Assembly: GCA_037043015.1 (NCBI GenBank)
Contig: CM073325.1
Coordinates: forward strand, 11,573,001 to 11,637,000
DNA from: Bryum argenteum
Lineage: Eukaryota > Streptophyta > Bryopsida > Bryales > Bryaceae
DNA length: 64,000 nt
Direction of reading: 5' to 3'
The notes beneath the pieces were generated by a model. The model saw only the letters and a list, made by a program, of their open reading frames with translations, did no database searches and was not told the DNA's origin. Made by a program: the position numbers and the translations under genes. Every line of letters begins with the position of its first letter. The stretch's first letter is position 1. Positions 8,108 through 52,237 of the stretch are shown here, in pieces.

Positions 8108-8589
<482 letters not shown>

Positions 8590-18538: not shown

Positions 18539-19682
18539 ATGTCTTTTGAGAGGTTTGATAGTCTTATTTGCGAGGAGGTCAATAGTGGTACCACTAATTT
18601 TAAAAATTGGATGCTTCAATTTTTAGATCCTTTTGATCCCAATTTTGACTCTTTAATGACAAAAATTTCATGGCTTGATGCCGAGTTGATGAAAATTAGT
18701 AATTGAACCTCGTAGGTTAGTACATGGGATAAACAAAGATCCATTAGATGGATCTTTGTTGCATTTCCTCCCACTCGATGCAGAGGTTATTGATTTGAAC
18801 GGTAATAGGGAGGTTGCTAGACGTAGCTACGGTGTGATTTTTAAGTGTCACATAATAGGAGTCGATTTCATTCCAAGAGAAGAGGAGTACGCTTGTAAAG
18901 CCTTCATTAGTACTGTTCATAGAAATAGTTTTCAATCAATGAACATAGAAGCCACAAGTTGTCCTTTGGTCCATCCTCTATTTATGAAATTATTTGCCAT
19001 ACATCCTTCTAAACCGCATGGATATATGCGATGGTGGAATGCTGGAACTTTGAGAAGTATGGTCTTGAAGCGCAATGGAAAATCACGTATGGAGCCAGGA
19101 GTGGATGCTGACAATGTGAAGTTGTTTCAACGACTACGAATCCGATTGTCTTGGCACTTTTTATTTGGTATGTTATTTCTGTATAAAAATGGTAGCATAC
19201 ATTGTGATTTGTCTCCCGACAACATCTTATTACACAGAGAAGAAGATAATATGTACATAGGTGTTTGTGATTGGGGATTTGCATGTAAGATAGAGTTTCC
19301 TCTGCTATCCAACTATGCATATCCATCACAAAAAGAATTGGAGGCAGATAGAATAAGACGGCCTTGGGTGGATCCATCTTTACTGAGTGTTTATGGATCA
19401 AAAGTAGCTAAATTTAGTTTAGCTACTGATGTGTATGTTACATCAAGGATAGCATCTTGGATTATAGGGCCTTTTGATGAAGACAGTGAGATTTCGTCCA
19501 CAGATTATGAGATATACACTCATGGCCTATGGTTGCTCAGTAGTGAACCTGCAAACGAATGTTATAATACCCTTTTACAAAGAGTAAAGGGATTCCAACG
19601 GTCAATACCCATTTTGAGGAATGATCCAATAGAGACCATGTTTGAGACCATTGATGTATATTTTATTAATCTAAATATATAA
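18539..19682 (+). pseudogene. Atypical protein-kinase-like gene, single exon, split by a frameshift
   Basis: Two overlapping frames make one kinase-like protein. The first (18539-18706, 55 codons, MSFERFDSLICEEVNSGTTN...) ends in TGA. The second is open from 18693 to 19682 without an ATG near its start, so a one-base shift around 18693-18703 probably separates them. The second frame shows a VAIK-like YACKAF, a catalytic loop HCDLSPDNILL (HRD changed to HCD), CDWGFA in place of DFG, and a WVDP block where APE would be. The catalytic Asp, the Asn of the loop and the metal-binding Asp are kept, the glycine loop is weak. No introns. Weakly placed in eukaryotic protein kinases; activity uncertain. 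If the frameshift is a sequence error, this is an intact gene of about 370 residues. Confidence 0.7.
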
Positions 19683-32234: not shown

Positions 32235-32748
32235 GTGAGACTCCAATCTCCCTTCATTTCTCACTATGTGATCACTCATGCAGGAAATTGCCCTGATTCA
32301 GAGGTTTTGTTCTTCTCGAAATTTCATATACATGCTCATTGCTATCTTGGACGGTAGTTTCGTTTTGATGTTACGGTCTTATTTTTAAAATCCTGCTGTA
32401 GTTTGACGGCTTGAATTGCGAGCTGTCAATCGCTAGAGGAAAGTGATGCAGCTTCCACTGTTTGGATTTCGATATGAGGAATTTTTGTTCACTTTCAGCA
32501 GTGCGAATTGTCTATTTTGAGAGCGTGGATCAATTTTTTCTTGTGCGAGCGATTCTGATCGTGGAGAGCGAGCGTTTTTTTGTTGCGCTTTGAGAATTGT
32601 CTTGTCGGGGATTGTTTCTTGGACTTCTTGCTCGGGATTCGGTGGCTTGTTGTGTTTTGTGATGTTAGTCGAGGGTGCTAATGTAGCTCGTTTTGGTGAC
32701 AGGTGTGATTTGTGGTTTTCGATCAATATTCTTGAGGAGTTCTATCAG
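32235..32748 (+). other. Probable 5' UTR intron of MBF1
   Basis: A strong donor CACCAG|GTGAGA at 32235 and an acceptor TTCTATCAG at 32748, four bases before the MBF1 ATG, bracket 514 bp of T-rich DNA. The pyrimidine-rich leader lies upstream (about 32046-32234). Leader introns often raise expression of housekeeping genes. Inferred from splice motifs only. Confidence 0.55.
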
Positions 32749-32753
32749 TAGGC

Positions 32754-33188
32754 ATGCCAACAAGAACAGCCGGGCCTATCTCCCAGGATTGGGCCCCTGT
32801 TGTAGTGCAGAAGCGACCAGTGAAGGGAGCGGACGCGCGTGACCCGAAAGTTATCGCTGCTGCGATTCGTGCTGGCGCTGAGATTCAGACTGTTCGGAAA
32901 TTTGATGCTGGATCAAACAAGAAGCAATCCGCAGCACCTTCTTTGAATACTCGAAAGCTTGATGAAGAATCCGAGCCCGCGGCGCTCGAACGTGTGTCGT
33001 TGGAGGTGAAGAATCGCATACAGAAGGCGCGCTTGGACAAGAAGCTCACTCAGGCACAGCTTGCGCAATTGATCAATGAGCGGCCTCAGGTTGTGCAAGA
33101 GTACGAGTCGGGGAAAGCCATCCCTTCACAGCAGGTTTTGGGGAAAATGGAACGGGCATTAGGTGTGAAGTTGAGAGGAAAGAAGTGA
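32754..33188 (+). CDS. MBF1: Multiprotein bridging factor 1 (transcriptional coactivator)
   Basis: MBF1 bridges bZIP-type activators and TBP in the nucleus and contributes to stress tolerance. Archaeal and yeast homologues also act on ribosomes. The 144-residue single-exon frame is full length. The N-terminal MBF1 domain (about 1-75) shows ISQDWAPVVVQKRPVKGADA, RDPKVIAAAIRAGAEI and LNTRKLDEE. The C-terminal Cro/C1-type HTH (about 82-138) has VKNRIQKARLDKKLTQAQLA, INERPQVVQEYESGKAIPSQ and LGKMERALGVKLRGKK. It resembles plant MBF1a/b rather than the stress-inducible MBF1c type. The start is the first ATG after a good acceptor. Confidence 0.97.
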   Translation: MPTRTAGPISQDWAPVVVQKRPVKGADARDPKVIAAAIRAGAEIQTVRKFDAGSNKKQSAAPSLNTRKLDEESEPAALERVSLEVKNRIQKARLDKKLTQAQLAQLINERPQVVQEYESGKAIPSQQVLGKMERALGVKLRGKK

Positions 33189-36364: not shown

Positions 36365-39300
36365 ATGAAGATTATAGAAGCAATAAGATCAAGCATGGTA
36401 GAAGAAAAGAATCTAGGTGCAGGACCTTTACATTTATGTTCTATGAAACGAAAAAACAATCTAAAGGTAAAAGCTAGAGAAAATGCTGGAATTGTAGCTA
36501 ATCTTCGTATTCAAGTTGAAGAGTTGAAGCAACAAAGAGATTTTCTAATTCAATGGAAGGCTGATATGTATGATGGAGTCAACATCAAAAGCACCCATGT
36601 AGACGTAGCGTTTCAAGGATCAAGTGGTGATTGTGTGCATGCGCACAAAGCTGTTTTGGTTAGTTCGAAGTAACACAAGCTTGTGGTATAAGATAAAACT
36701 ATATATGAAATTTATAATTTCTTGATCAACATTGAAAAAAACTCCTATATTTTTATTGCTGATTTCATTAATACAAATAGATAGAAAATAACCCAAAAAT
36801 GTAAACTTTGCTCAATAAAAGGTTATCACATATATTCATAAACCTGCAAGCGACACCTTTTAATTATAAATATCTCAACAACATCTTATTTATTATATTT
36901 TGTGAATTATGATTCAACTAAAGCTTCTAAGCATTGAAATTTAGGCATCAAAATCAAATGAGTTTGAAGAAATATTCCGCTCAGAAGTACAAGAAGAATT
37001 GATTCTTAAGCTAGATATGCCGTTTGAGCCACTAAAAGCCTTCATAAATTTCTTCTATACTGGTACTTTGAGTTACGAGATCATTTTGAGTCATTTATCA
37101 ACTTTGCTAAATGCAGCACAAAAGTACAATGTTCCGTTCCTTGCTCATGTATGTGAGGATTCGTTGGTGAAAAACTTGACAAGAAACAATGTCATTAGCA
37201 CATTTGACCTTGCTAAGAAACATTGTTCAAGCAATTGTAAAGAAGCTATTCTTGAGCGAGCTAGAAGTTTGGGTGACCTTTCAAGGTTTAAAGAATATAA
37301 TGATTTTACACAATTGAATCCCGGATTATTGTTAGAGTTATATGAACAACTTACAAATCAATTTGGGCAATCTCCATCAAAGAAGACAAAATTTTCACAA
37401 GGTCTTTACTTTATCTATATCACAAGCTATCTTATGACAAGATATAATTCATTCTTAAGTATATATATAAAAAAAGAATTTTACTTACCCATGAATCTAT
37501 GTTTTTTTGGAACTAATAACCTTGAATCATTCAGAAAACAACTTTGAACAACCACATAATGTTCTTGTGGCAACATCGGATGAAGAAGTTGTTAAATCCG
37601 AAACTGATGAAGATGAAAGTATTGATCATGAAGTGAAAGTTGAAACAAATCCAAGGACTAGTAAGCCTATATTATTATTTTTAAATTTTTTATCTAAAAG
37701 AAATAAAAAATAAAACTTATTTTGGACATCAACCCATAAAAACTTTAATAATAAAATGAATTAGTAAAATCTTATTTTAAAAAAATTCATTTGTGAATAT
37801 GTCCTTTGCTAAATAAAAAAAATTCAAATTCTTGAATAATTTTGTAGAAGTTATTGAGTAGAAAAATTTGTAAAATATATTGGATGTAATTTAATAATAT
37901 ATAGTAAGAATACTTTCTTGTCTTTCTTAAGGTGTTCGAATGCAACCTATTGGTGTTTCTCAACTAGGAACACCGATGTATTGGCCTGGAGCACCGATGC
38001 TTGGGAATCCATTTCATCCTGTTGGGTTTGAAAATGTTAATTATCCCCATTTACAAGGCCAAAGACCTCCTTCTTATGATGTGTCCATGATGCCAAGATC
38101 CCCTTATGGAATCCCTTCATTTGCCCCTCCCATATTTCCAAGGTGACATAGTATATCTATTCAAAGGAAGAAGATACTTCTTTTATTGACTTTGTCAAAA
38201 TTTGTGATTTTTTTGGAAATTCTTGATTGTCAAATAAACAATTTTTTCGTACAATATTGATGCTTTGAAGCTTTTATAAATTTGTTGATTGCGAAGGTAC
38301 ATTTTTCTTTTTTTGCAACTATCGATTCGAAAGGCACATCTTCAAACTAAACACTCATTAAAAGATTATAATTTTATTCTTATAACTATTCAATTCATGT
38401 AAAATTAAATGGAATTTATCATGTCTATGATTTTGTATTTTTGATCAGGGGCTTTTTGAGAGGAGCAACTATACCTTCTATAGGTACACTAAAGAAGCCG
38501 CTAGCTGAAGAAATATTCTCAAGTAAAGACAAAGGTAAGTAACATATCACATGATTCCAATTGCATCATTTGTATGGAGAGAATCACATCATTTTTATTG
38601 ATGATGATATTGCCCCAGTTTTTTATTTGGTACAATTTTTATAATTGTAAAGTAAATAAGGAAAAACATTAACACTTATATTGGTCTACTTCATTATATA
38701 TGATAAAGGTAGAAGTATTGATTGTAGTATTCAAATTGATTATGGAATTAGTTATCAGAAAAGAAGATGTAAAAAGGTCAAGAGCACCAACAAAGTATCA
38801 AAAAAGATGTTTGTTAAGAGGCGTCAAAACAACCCACAATAAAAACAAGAAGTTTATTGCTACCATCACTGTTAAAGGACAACATGTTGTTTTGGGAAAA
38901 TGTCATACTGAAGAAGAAGCCGGGCGTCTCTATGATCGGTGAGTATGTGAAATGAGCAAGTTTCTATTAACATTCTTGTGTGAATGCTATTATGATGAGC
39001 TTCATATACTTCATGATGTAATATTCTCAATGTTGGTAAGCTTTCATACTAACTACATACAAATTCCTAATAACATGGAGAGTGACATTTCATTTCTTAA
39101 TTCCTATACGATGAAATTAAAAATAATGTTAAAGACGAACAAGTTATTCAAACATTATTATATTCTTAAAAACCCTACAGAGCAGCATTTGTTATTGGCC
39201 GCAAAACAAATAATGATTTGCCTGATGATACAAAAGAAGAATTGAAGGGCATTTCATGGGATGACTTTGTGGCTTCACTTCAGGAAGTGACCGCTCTTGA

Positions 39301-39904
39301 AAGTATGTTCATCAAAGGATTCCCTACTTTGCTCTTGAAGTTGTTTATATATCAGTCTTTGAGTGTAAAATCTAATATTTCTATCTCTCTATTTGTTACA
39401 AATAAATTGTTTGATACTTTGAGTAAAAGCATTCAAAGCACATGATAGAACTTCTGAAATGGAGAAGTATTTATATTTCTTTTATGTTTACATTGAACCC
39501 CAATTCCGTTAAAATGGCACTATGCCATGTGCCATTTTGTCACACTAGATCTCACATTTGTGCTCATATAAAATGGTATATTCTGTAATATCACAATTTT
39601 TTTTGTAATATCACTTCTTTATATACATTGTCACTCATTTTCTCTAATATCACCTTAAAATTCTGTTATATCACATGGTTTTTGAACTACATTTTAGAAA
39701 GTTGAGGTGTGCCATTTTACCGGAATAATGCCATTTTAACGGAATTGGGGTTATTGTGGTTATATTGTAGGGATTCATAAAGATAAACCAGAGAATGAAG
39801 ATTCGAAGGAGGTTGAAAAAAATGAAGTCCAAGCAGAAGACCAATTGCAAGAACACGAACAAGTTATGAGTGACATCTCTAATCATTCTTCTCCAACATG
39901 TTGA
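36365..39904 (+). CDS. BTB/POZ-domain protein with a C-terminal AP2-like domain
   Basis: Eight exons fit by phase: 36365-36658, 36945-37401, 37535-37660, 37932-38142, 38449-38534, about 38713-38938, 39181-39302, 39771-39904, giving about 551 residues. The N-terminus has a coiled-coil-like LRIQVEELKQQRDFLIQWK. BTB follows: THVDVAFQGSSGDCVHAHKA, ASKSNEFEEIF, LKAFINFFYTGTL, AAQKYNVPFLAHVCEDSLV, then a BACK-like helical stretch. An acidic stretch and a Pro/Met-rich linker (PMYWPGAPMLGNPFHPVGFE) lead to an AP2-like unit: LLRGVKTTHNKNKKFIATIT, VVLGKCHTEEEAGRLYDRAA, then FVIGRKTNNDL. BTB proteins usually link substrates to CUL3 ligases and AP2 domains bind DNA. This pairing suggests a DNA-targeted adaptor, which is inference. 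The start could also be the in-frame ATG at 36335. The acceptor of exon 6 is uncertain. Confidence 0.75.
39496..39752. mobile_element. MITE in the last intron of the BTB gene
   Basis: Perfect 24-bp terminal inverted repeats, beginning AACCCCAATTCCGTTAAAAT, are flanked by the tetranucleotide ATTG on both sides (39492-39495 and 39753-39756). The 257-bp body repeats a motif like TAATATCAC several times. It ends 18 bp before the final exon and may supply part of that exon's acceptor region. Superfamily unassigned. Confidence 0.8.
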
Positions 39905-44162: not shown

Positions 44163-46445
44163 CTAACCATGAAGGTCTCGAGGTGGAAGTGATTGTTGCT
44201 CCAAATTCAATGTTTCCATCGGCAATGCATTATCATCGACTATACAATTTTCCATACACGCATCTCCTGTCGGTAAACCCACATTCTCCTCGCATTGTGG
44301 CTCTTCTTGCAACTCGCACATCGGCAATATAGTGTCCTCAACCATAAAGTTCTTGATATTGGCATCAACCACATAAGGATTGACATTATGCTCACATGGA
44401 GGCTCATCATTCAACTCACCCATTCGCAATGCATTCTCGTCAACCGCACATTCTTCTAAACTTGCATTGCTTATGGCAGGATTCACATCGTGCTCACAGT
44501 GTCGCTCTTCATTCAACAAGCAAATCTGGAATGTTATGCCCTCGACCATACATTTCTCCATACTTTCACTAGTACCAGGAGGATCCACATCGTGCACACA
44601 TTGTGGATCTTCTTGGAACTCACAAATCTTCAATAAAACTTCCTCAATCTTATAATTCTCCACAATTGTATTGGCTAGGGGAGGATCCACATCAAGCTCA
44701 CATTGTCCCTTTTCATTCAACTCACACATCCGCAGTGCAGCGTCCTCAACCGTGCACTTCTCCATACTTGCATCGCCCATGGGATGATCCACGTCATGCT
44801 CACATTGAGGCTCTTTTTGCAACTCCCACATTTGCAACATAGAGTTCTCCATACTTGCATTCACCATGGCAAGATCCACATTGCGTGCAGATCGTGGCTC
44901 TTCTTGTAACTCGCACAATTGCAATGTAGCCTCCTCAACCACACACTTCTCTATACTTGCACCACTCATGGAATTCTCCCCATCATGTTGACGCTCTTCA
45001 TACAACTCACATTGAGAGTCCATCAAGCCGACACTCTCATCTCGCAAACTACAATTGAGCTCCATCTCTTGTGCCACATTCTCAACACCACCACCATCAT
45101 CCTTGACAACCTTCGGTGACCTACAAGTGTCGTCTAATGAGCACTCACCCTCTTGGTTGTGTGGATTAGCAAGCTCACGAAGCCCACTTCGGGATCGTGT
45201 CATTGTTGTTGATTTTGACATGGTTACATGATCCTGCCCTTTTTTATTTTTCTTCTTCTTGTGTTTGCGCCCTCCCGGCTTGTTGATGGATGCACTCCGG
45301 TTTGTTATGACTTCCATCCTCCTTGCTAGTGGTACATCATCACTATCTTGCTCTGATTGTATGAATGTTGTTGGTTCCTTCCTTTGTATTGTAATCAAAG
45401 GTACACCCTTCTGTTTCTGTGCACACCACAAATGTCTAGTTTCACATTTTGATACCTTGATAGCTTCATAAGCATATTGGACTCTTAAAGTACTAAATTA
45501 GCATTAAGTATGGAATAGTTACCTTGAACGCGCTTGACTGGGCCCACAACGAGTCTTCCTTTGCCCTTGGCATCTGTGAACAATGACAAATGACACTTTG
45601 GAATAGACCATGTTTCTCAAATAAGGTTTCCTTTGTTTTCATTCTTGTACAGTTGATTAGAATTCATGATTCATCAATTAATTGTGGAATCTATCATGGG
45701 TTTTTCAAGAATATTCAAATCTTGTTTAAAACCTCCACTTGTAACAAACCTCTCAATAGGTTTGTGCACAGCAACAACACAATCGTTTTCAGTCTTTATC
45801 ACTTCTCACGTACAAAGTCTTCATATGAAGCATGAGAAATTCTCCATGAATAAACATACTACAGAGATTGTCAGATGCGGCATCACAGTGTAAACCCTAA
45901 AGCACGGAATAAACCCTAAGAGGGAGAGACAATCACCTGGAAAATCTCAAGCTGACCCACGCTCCTTTTGCCACATCGCTCTGATTCCTCAACATCCATG
46001 TAATTCTGCAATTCATGAAAAAAGCAACTCAGCATTACACATGATGCATCTATGACCTAAAATTACAAGAAAACCGTGTTGTTTATGACCATTTCCGAGG
46101 AATTTGCAGTCGAAATGAAGGGTTTATGATTGATTCCAGATAGTCTTGCACACGGTTATACACAAGCGCAAAGAAAAGATTGGAAGAGAATTTTACCCAG
46201 GCTGAGATGCTCGGACTAATTGCGGGATCATGCTGATTTAGTGCCAATGGCGGAGTCGCATACTCTTCTTCTGCGACGTGATTAATACATTCTGCTGCTG
46301 CTCCATCCGATGACTGTGTGTGATTATTTGCATTCTCCAGCAGCATCGATCTGCAATGTCGCCCGTACATGTAGCCCAATGCCAAACACCCTGCTCCGAC
46401 AAATATCGGCTCATATCCATGCAATGTGGACGTGAAATACTCCAT
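44163..46445 (-). CDS. Membrane-anchored protein with eight 34-residue acidic repeats (function unknown)
   Basis: Four exons, all phase 0: 46197-46445, 45937-46005, 45523-45573 and 44163-45455, giving 553 residues. The N-terminus (MEYFTSTLHGYEPIFVGAGC...) has one hydrophobic segment, IFVGAGCLALGYMYG, about residues 14-28, followed by RHCR, so a signal anchor is likely. Exons 2 to 4 continue MPRAKEDSLWAQSSAFK and VSKCETRHLWCAQKQKGVPL, an ordered-looking core, then a lysine-rich patch GRKHKKKKNKKG. From about 44963 down to the end, a 34-residue unit repeats about eight times (pattern ASMEKC-VEDAAL-MCEL--E-QCE-DVDPP), highly acidic with two or three cysteines per unit. The final unit is degenerate. 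I do not recognise the family. A coding minisatellite of 102 bp is the cause of the repeat. Confidence 0.75.
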
Positions 46446-51000: not shown

Positions 51001-51849
51001 CTAAGTAGAGTTGACTTCCATCCGACAAAGAGGGCATGTTCTTTCCCTTGCCAACCATTCTCGAATGCAATCAAAGTGAAAGTTGTGTGTACAGTATAGA
51101 CTACACACCTCCATTCCATCTTCATACGAATATTGACATATCACACATCGATCTTCTTCGTTGTTCAATAAGTTTTCATAAGTAAACCGTGGAAGAGCAT
51201 CAATGACTTGAGAATCCAAGCCTACTTTCACATCTCCATTTATATCTTCGAGAGCCAATAAGTCTTCATAGGACATATTATTGATATCACTTACTCCCTC
51301 AATTCTTACAAAGAGAGCAATTATATCAGCAAGTGGCATATTGACAACACTAAAAACATGAAAAATATCTCTAAGCCTTTCTTGTAAAGTGTATTCATGA
51401 AAAATTGTTACCGATATATCTTCACGATTATTCACGTCTATGATATCAACATCAATAACCCCATTTTGTATTCCATAACCATCATTGATGATGTCACTTT
51501 GTGGTTCATCACCATCATAAACATCATCATGGTTTCTTCCAACATTTTCTTCAAGGTGACATCTTACAAGATTAGTAAGTGCTCTTTCAAGCTCGTCCTC
51601 ATCACCATCCAAACGATAATTGAGCATAATTTGTTGCCATGTTTCCAAGGGAAAATTCCAAGGGGTAATTTTCGATAATGATTCAAGAGTTTCTAGGAAT
51701 TGAGGATTTTCACTAAGAGCAAGAGCCTGCGCGAAGGCAATAACGTCTTGATAAAATTGTAAATTATGAATGCTATACAGAGTATCTTGAGCATGTTGTG
51801 CTTCATTGTTCATGAAAGGATTTGCCATATCACCATTGTTGGTATCCAT
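51001..51849 (-). CDS. RING-H2 finger protein (probable E3 ubiquitin ligase)
   Basis: Single-exon frame of 282 residues from the ATG at 51849 (an upstream in-frame GTG adds nothing recognisable). The C-terminal RING-H2, about residues 235-276, keeps the full C3H2C3 ligand set: CVICQYSYEDG, CSLYCTHNFHFDCIREWL and CPLC, with the Trp of the E2-binding surface. The rest is acidic (DGDEDELERAL, DDVYDGDEPQSD) without transmembrane segment, so a soluble E3 is likely. The organisation, with a RING-H2 at the very C-terminus after a low-complexity acidic N-terminus, is common in plant BIG BROTHER- or RHA-like proteins, but I cannot place it in a named subfamily. Confidence 0.88.
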   Translation of the reverse strand: MDTNNGDMANPFMNNEAQHAQDTLYSIHNLQFYQDVIAFAQALALSENPQFLETLESLSKITPWNFPLETWQQIMLNYRLDGDEDELERALTNLVRCHLEENVGRNHDDVYDGDEPQSDIINDGYGIQNGVIDVDIIDVNNREDISVTIFHEYTLQERLRDIFHVFSVVNMPLADIIALFVRIEGVSDINNMSYEDLLALEDINGDVKVGLDSQVIDALPRFTYENLLNNEEDRCVICQYSYEDGMEVCSLYCTHNFHFDCIREWLARERTCPLCRMEVNST

Positions 51850-52237
51850 TTTGAAATCACAACTTACTAATGACAAATCTCCAACTCCTCCAAAGTTTGA
51901 AAAAGTAAAAGAATCTATTGTGTGGTGCACGTAAATTTATCTAATAGAAGATGCTAGCCTACTTATATATCAAACATTGAACTTATAAAAAGCAAAAGTT
52001 ATTTTATACTTAAATCAAAACTAATGTGTATAAACTATTCTTTTACTTTGAAAACTTAAGATCTTTTCAAGGATTTGACTTCATCACTTGAATTGAAATA
52101 TTCTTGATGGATTTGAACTCTTATGTAGAGTATGAAGTTTTTTGAACATTCAAATGATAAAAAGGCATATATAATGACTTTCTATATGGTTTGTTCAATC
52201 ATTTGTTAAAATTCTAGAAAGTGGGTTATTTTTAGGA

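Follow-up and report, generated by a model that had tools for sequence, protein, structure and literature searches.

A predicted moss protein joining a BTB/BACK-like half to a Soloist-type AP2-like unit in Bryum argenteum

Within a 64,000-nucleotide (nt) stretch of the Bryum argenteum genome (assembly GCA_037043015.1, contig CM073325.1, positions 11,573,001 to 11,637,000; hereafter the window), a gene of eight exons at 36365-39904 is predicted to encode a protein of 538 amino acids (aa), in which a BTB/BACK-like half is joined to a C-terminal AP2-fold unit of the Soloist type. Judging from sequence, we regard this architecture and ancestry as close to certain. They are carried by the fusion joint itself, by annotated fused proteins in two other mosses, by the kinship of the C-terminal unit with Soloist, and by a sister gene model that ends in a Myb/SANT unit. 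A search of titles and the opening parts of abstracts retrieved no description of a BTB-AP2 fusion, in agreement with an initial annotation of this DNA, which knew of no such family. A survey of AP2/ERF genes in B. argenteum lists 83 genes, including two Soloists (PMC6275083), and the word BTB was not found in its main text. In the literature searched, the protein is a member of a known BTB class with an unreported C-terminal partner.

Exon structure and moss counterparts

The reading frame of the window gene begins with an ATG at 36365 and ends with a stop at 39904; all exon borders are of the GT..AG type and the phases are consistent (Table 1). An N-terminal helix is followed in the product by the BTB domain with BACK-like helices, an acidic, Pro/Met-rich linker and the AP2-like unit. 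The exon encoding the first part of this unit most likely begins at 38752, an acceptor picked by phase and by the best fit to the Physcomitrium patens protein from seven in-phase, stop-free acceptors that include it. Within the last intron, at 39496-39752, inverted ends (AACCCCAATTCCGTTAAAATGGCA and TGCCATTTTAACGGAATTGGGGTT) were seen by eye, resembling a small inverted-repeat transposable element.

The initial annotation proposed looking for this architecture in other bryophytes, and it was recovered in other mosses. A full-length homologue search, in which the best 7998 candidates were scored, returned at least four homologous proteins at an E-value (E) of 1e-3 or better. P0001 from P. patens, whose gene is LOC112281025, is annotated in one piece and includes the BTB as well as the AP2 half, with 52% identity across 92% of the window protein (E 4.5e-156); P0002 is isoform X4 from the same species. 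P0003 from Ceratodon purpureus is a more divergent fused protein (34% identity over 83%), and P0004 is without the AP2 part. Between the window and P. patens proteins, identical residues number 32/70 in the N-terminal segment, 57/99 in BTB, 44/61 in the BACK-like region, 55/168 in the linker, 78/90 in the AP2 unit and 7/44 in the tail. The AP2 unit is therefore the best-conserved part in the Bryum-Physcomitrium comparison, but not in that of Bryum with Ceratodon (36/90 in the AP2 unit, 46/99 in BTB). The names given to the proteins of P. patens and Ceratodon are 'uncharacterized' or 'hypothetical', and BTB is the sole precomputed domain of P0001, P0002 and P0003; fused AP2-like ends can thus escape profile annotation.

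Soloist ancestry of the AP2-like unit

By nearest sequence and common intron positions, the AP2-like unit is assigned specifically to the Soloist type. It is 45% identical to the Soloist protein over 74 aa (pairwise E 4e-21), and among the 26 AP2 loci of the Bryum genome Soloist scores 71 bits against it, compared with 36 bits for the next AP2 unit. The units of all three fused proteins behave alike, with 71-73 bits for Soloist (At4g13040 type) and 27-37 bits for the next AP2 unit of the Bryum genome. When the Soloist unit was searched against the window by tblastn (cut at E 5), only exons 6 and 7 matched, in order, with E 2e-7 and 1e-5. An intron in the YD(R) codon is common to both genes. 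The Soloist exon that matches exon 6 has 184 nt, compared with 187 nt in the window gene, with phases 1 and 2 in both, and the exon that matches exon 7 has 122 nt and equal phases in the two genes. The genome that contains the window comprises 258.8 Mb in 25 contigs, and the protein of its Soloist gene model is identical at 204/204 positions to the deposited 'soloist [Bryum argenteum]'. A single clade of the three fused units was not rejected in a 27-row tree (p-value of the approximately unbiased test, p-AU, 0.478). Fused units read LRG and VLG, and two Soloist-like proteins from ferns, P0075 and P0121, have LRG as well.

Other searches gave weaker signals. The full window protein has no match to the Pfam AP2 profile (PF00847) up to E 10, and the excised 100-aa unit reaches only E 0.13 and 13 bits, below the cut-off of 33.3. 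In a genome-wide search with the window unit, neither Soloist exon reached E 0.01 (0.018 and 0.54), and an exon of a canonical AP2 gene was slightly better (E 0.013). The Soloist of the same genome likewise falls under the PF00847 cut-off, with 23.9 bits. The AP2-like assignment of the initial annotation accordingly failed as a profile match but held as homology to Soloist, and structure modelling of the unit from P. patens gave the AP2 fold of three strands and a helix. As a separate observation, P0007 from Chara braunii, of 542 aa, appears by reading to carry three tandem Soloist-like units.

A sister gene model with a Myb/SANT end

When the genome was searched with Ceratodon P0003, the top match was at C6:18837200-18837667 (E 2.6e-36) and the window gene came second (E 1.6e-32). 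The C6 gene model has exon phases 0,0,1,1,2,1, the same as those of window exons 1-6; the intron position after exon 1 is common to both genes, exon 2 has 457 nt in each, and the linkers are similar. Where the window gene has its AP2-like unit, the predicted C6 product ends in a Myb_DNA-bind_4 domain (E 2.5e-12).

Searched against the genome at exon level, the Myb/SANT unit of C6 gave at least 150 matches with E of 1 or better (the best 150 of 257 candidates, two of them the C6 gene itself), and many matches are interrupted by stops. Copies of an element with this unit on C4 (L068) and C2 (L069) are 98.4% identical over 3508 base pairs (bp). L068 and the related L070 each contain a long opposite-strand frame, and both frames match DDE_Tnp_4 (E 1.8e-30 and 4e-28). 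The SANT units of the element and of C6 share 40% identity, and at the junction KQG|V the two-frame break of the element falls, by reading, at the same place as in C6; therefore a PIF/Harbinger-like element, or an ancestor shared with it, is the likely source of the C6 end. The C6 gene is an apparent case of transposon-to-host domain capture. One chassis may in this way have gained a second DNA-binding-type unit, which would be a compact example of how a regulator arises through domain exchange.

Around the C6 stop (about C6:18834968-18835033), a stretch of 22 aa that crosses the stop is weakly similar (E 0.089) to the final exon of the AP2 unit in Ceratodon P0003. It is a possible but unproven relic of a replaced AP2 end.

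Possible function and comparison with known systems

The BTB domain named in the initial annotation was confirmed by profile search (PF00651, aa 77-175, E 1.4e-15, 57.9 bits against a cut-off of 20.5). The BTB domain is followed by BACK-like helices, as judged from an alignment with SPOP that extends from aa 87 to 236 (E 6.9e-9); no Pfam match to MATH was found in the window protein. The model of P. patens P0001 predicts a long N-terminal helix (residues 11-53), with a whole-model mean predicted local distance difference test (pLDDT) score of 53.7.

We propose a working model of function tentatively, and would place it somewhat below an even chance; the account that combines it with the architecture and ancestry seems to us evenly balanced. 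Exon shuffling would have supplied a single BTB chassis with DNA-binding-type units of different kinds, BTB would pair the protein, and the C-terminal unit would direct it to its target. By analogy, the protein would probably be a BTB-paired regulator, broadly like animal BTB-zinc-finger proteins. Since the fold is kept and most of the GCC-contacting Arg/Trp residues are lost, a protein partner or non-GCC DNA would be a likelier ligand of the AP2-like unit than the GCC box. CUL3-dependent turnover of the bound target may occur as an option of this model, although the unconserved contact motif, discussed below, counts against it.

A CUL3 substrate adaptor, in which the BTB/BACK part would bind CUL3 while the AP2-like unit would bring in Soloist partners or DNA-bound factors to be ubiquitinated, is unlikely, but the strongest of the alternatives. 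It would fit the SPOP-like BTB and BACK-like helices, the V-Q-E of the window protein, which agrees with the phi-x-E motif, and a report from soybean that a BTB/POZ protein acts in trans to promote the breakdown of the AP2/ERF factor GmAP2 (PMC10758382, citing Zhang 2021). The phi-x-E residues contact CUL3, and an E-to-A change in this motif of KLHL3 disrupted CUL3 binding so far that the dissociation constant could not be determined (PMC3616122). At this position P0001 has T-D-R, P0003 V-K-D, P0004 S-E-G and C6 A-D-V, so that the motif is present in one of five relatives and CUL3 binding via it is not a conserved property, which weakens the adaptor reading without being decisive. CUL3 recruitment is therefore doubtful, and the idea of the initial annotation that the protein could bring a CUL3 ligase to DNA-bound factors is not demonstrated by the sequences.

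A sequence-specific factor of the AP2/ERF type, acting as a BTB dimer on GCC or dehydration-responsive element (DRE) boxes, is improbable. The AP2 fold of the P. patens model and the reported binding of a Soloist protein to CE1, RAA and CBF2 probes (PMC5543283) are consistent with it. However, the AtERF1 residues R150, R152, R170 and W172, named as GCC-box contacts (PMC3602543), are replaced in the aligned window unit by K, N, H and V; the R152 pairing is uncertain as it sits just after a 2-column gap. Both B. argenteum Soloists also lacked transactivation in yeast, in an assay of activation rather than DNA binding (PMC6275083).

Two adjacent genes, or mostly separate BTB and AP2 transcripts, are very improbable. 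An AP2-only transcript is hinted at by P0008, a 126-aa frame identical to the P. patens AP2 end except for its first three residues; the frame reads continuously across the exon 6-7-8 joints and therefore probably comes from spliced RNA. P0001, however, spans 92% of the window protein in one model, the blocks KSETDEDES and RGFLRGA are conserved in the interdomain region, and C6 has an equal exon series with another C-terminus. The single gene proposed initially from phase-consistent exons is thus upheld at the level of sequence.

Soloist is a conserved AP2 branch whose DNA-binding properties are described as little known (PMC5543283). The conserved natural fusion gives a Soloist-type unit a partner domain, BTB, and the question is testable in Physcomitrium. 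Gene targeting is routine in this moss.

Elsewhere in the window, other frames and a repeat were recorded (Table 1); the 444-aa frame has no Pfam match at E 0.01.

Table 1. Coordinates of the window gene, its C6 paralogue and other features of the window
Feature	Position	Strand	Description
Exon 1	36365..36658	+	aa 1-98; N-terminal helix (LRIQVEELKQQRDFL) and BTB start up to HKAVL; GT donor, phase 0
Exon 2	36945..37401	+	from aa 99; remaining BTB and BACK-like helices
Exon 3	37535..37660	+	acidic segment KSETDEDES, also in P. patens P0001
Exon 4	37932..38142	+	Pro/Met-rich linker (RPPSYDVSMMPRSPYGIPSF); similar in Ceratodon P0003 and C6 paralogue, poorly conserved in P. patens
Exon 5	38449..38534	+	linker end RGFLRGA, also in P. 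patens; phase 2 start as in C6 exon 5
Exon 6	38752..38938	+	the three strands of the AP2-like unit and the greater part of its helix, up to YD(R)
Exon 7	39181..39302	+	last part of AP2-like unit, with Soloist-type segment (KEELKGISWDDF)
Exon 8	39771..39904	+	variable tail and stop
C6 paralogue (L035)	C6:18834995-18838392	-	BTB gene model ending in Myb/SANT (trihelix) unit
TCTA repeat	8108-8589		120.5 copies, 100% matches
Protein-kinase-like frame	18693-19679	+	Pfam
MBF1 frame	32736-33185	+	Pfam
444-aa open frame	44163-45497	-	overlaps tandem repeat of period 102
RING-H2 frame	51004-51936	-	Pfam

Among known systems, SPOP and the plant MATH-BTB adaptors of CUL3 resemble the window protein in the BTB and BACK-like region, which aligns with SPOP, whereas the window protein has no MATH match and phi-x-E is not conserved among its relatives. 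With Soloist (ethylene-responsive transcription factor-like protein At4g13040, APD1) it has in common an AP2-like unit followed by a K-x-E-L..W-[DE]-[DE]-F segment, the phases 1-2-1 of the last three exons and a penultimate exon of 122 nt. The listed Soloist proteins are mostly of about 200-240 aa, without BTB, and most read MRG..HLG; in the fused unit LRG..VLG stands in its place, together with an insert of 3 residues. Animal BTB-zinc-finger transcription factors carry an N-terminal BTB, a long linker and a C-terminal DNA-binding-type unit, a layout common to the window protein; the DNA-binding folds differ, the lineage is that of plants, and the window protein has a BACK-like region; an independent origin is probable. 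As a tentative suggestion, the moss genes may form a BTB regulator family, not described in the papers retrieved, that is a counterpart of these animal factors; exon shuffling would have fitted a BTB chassis and its linker with interchangeable DNA-binding-type ends, one taken from the Soloist AP2 gene and the other from the Myb/SANT gene of a PIF/Harbinger-like transposon.
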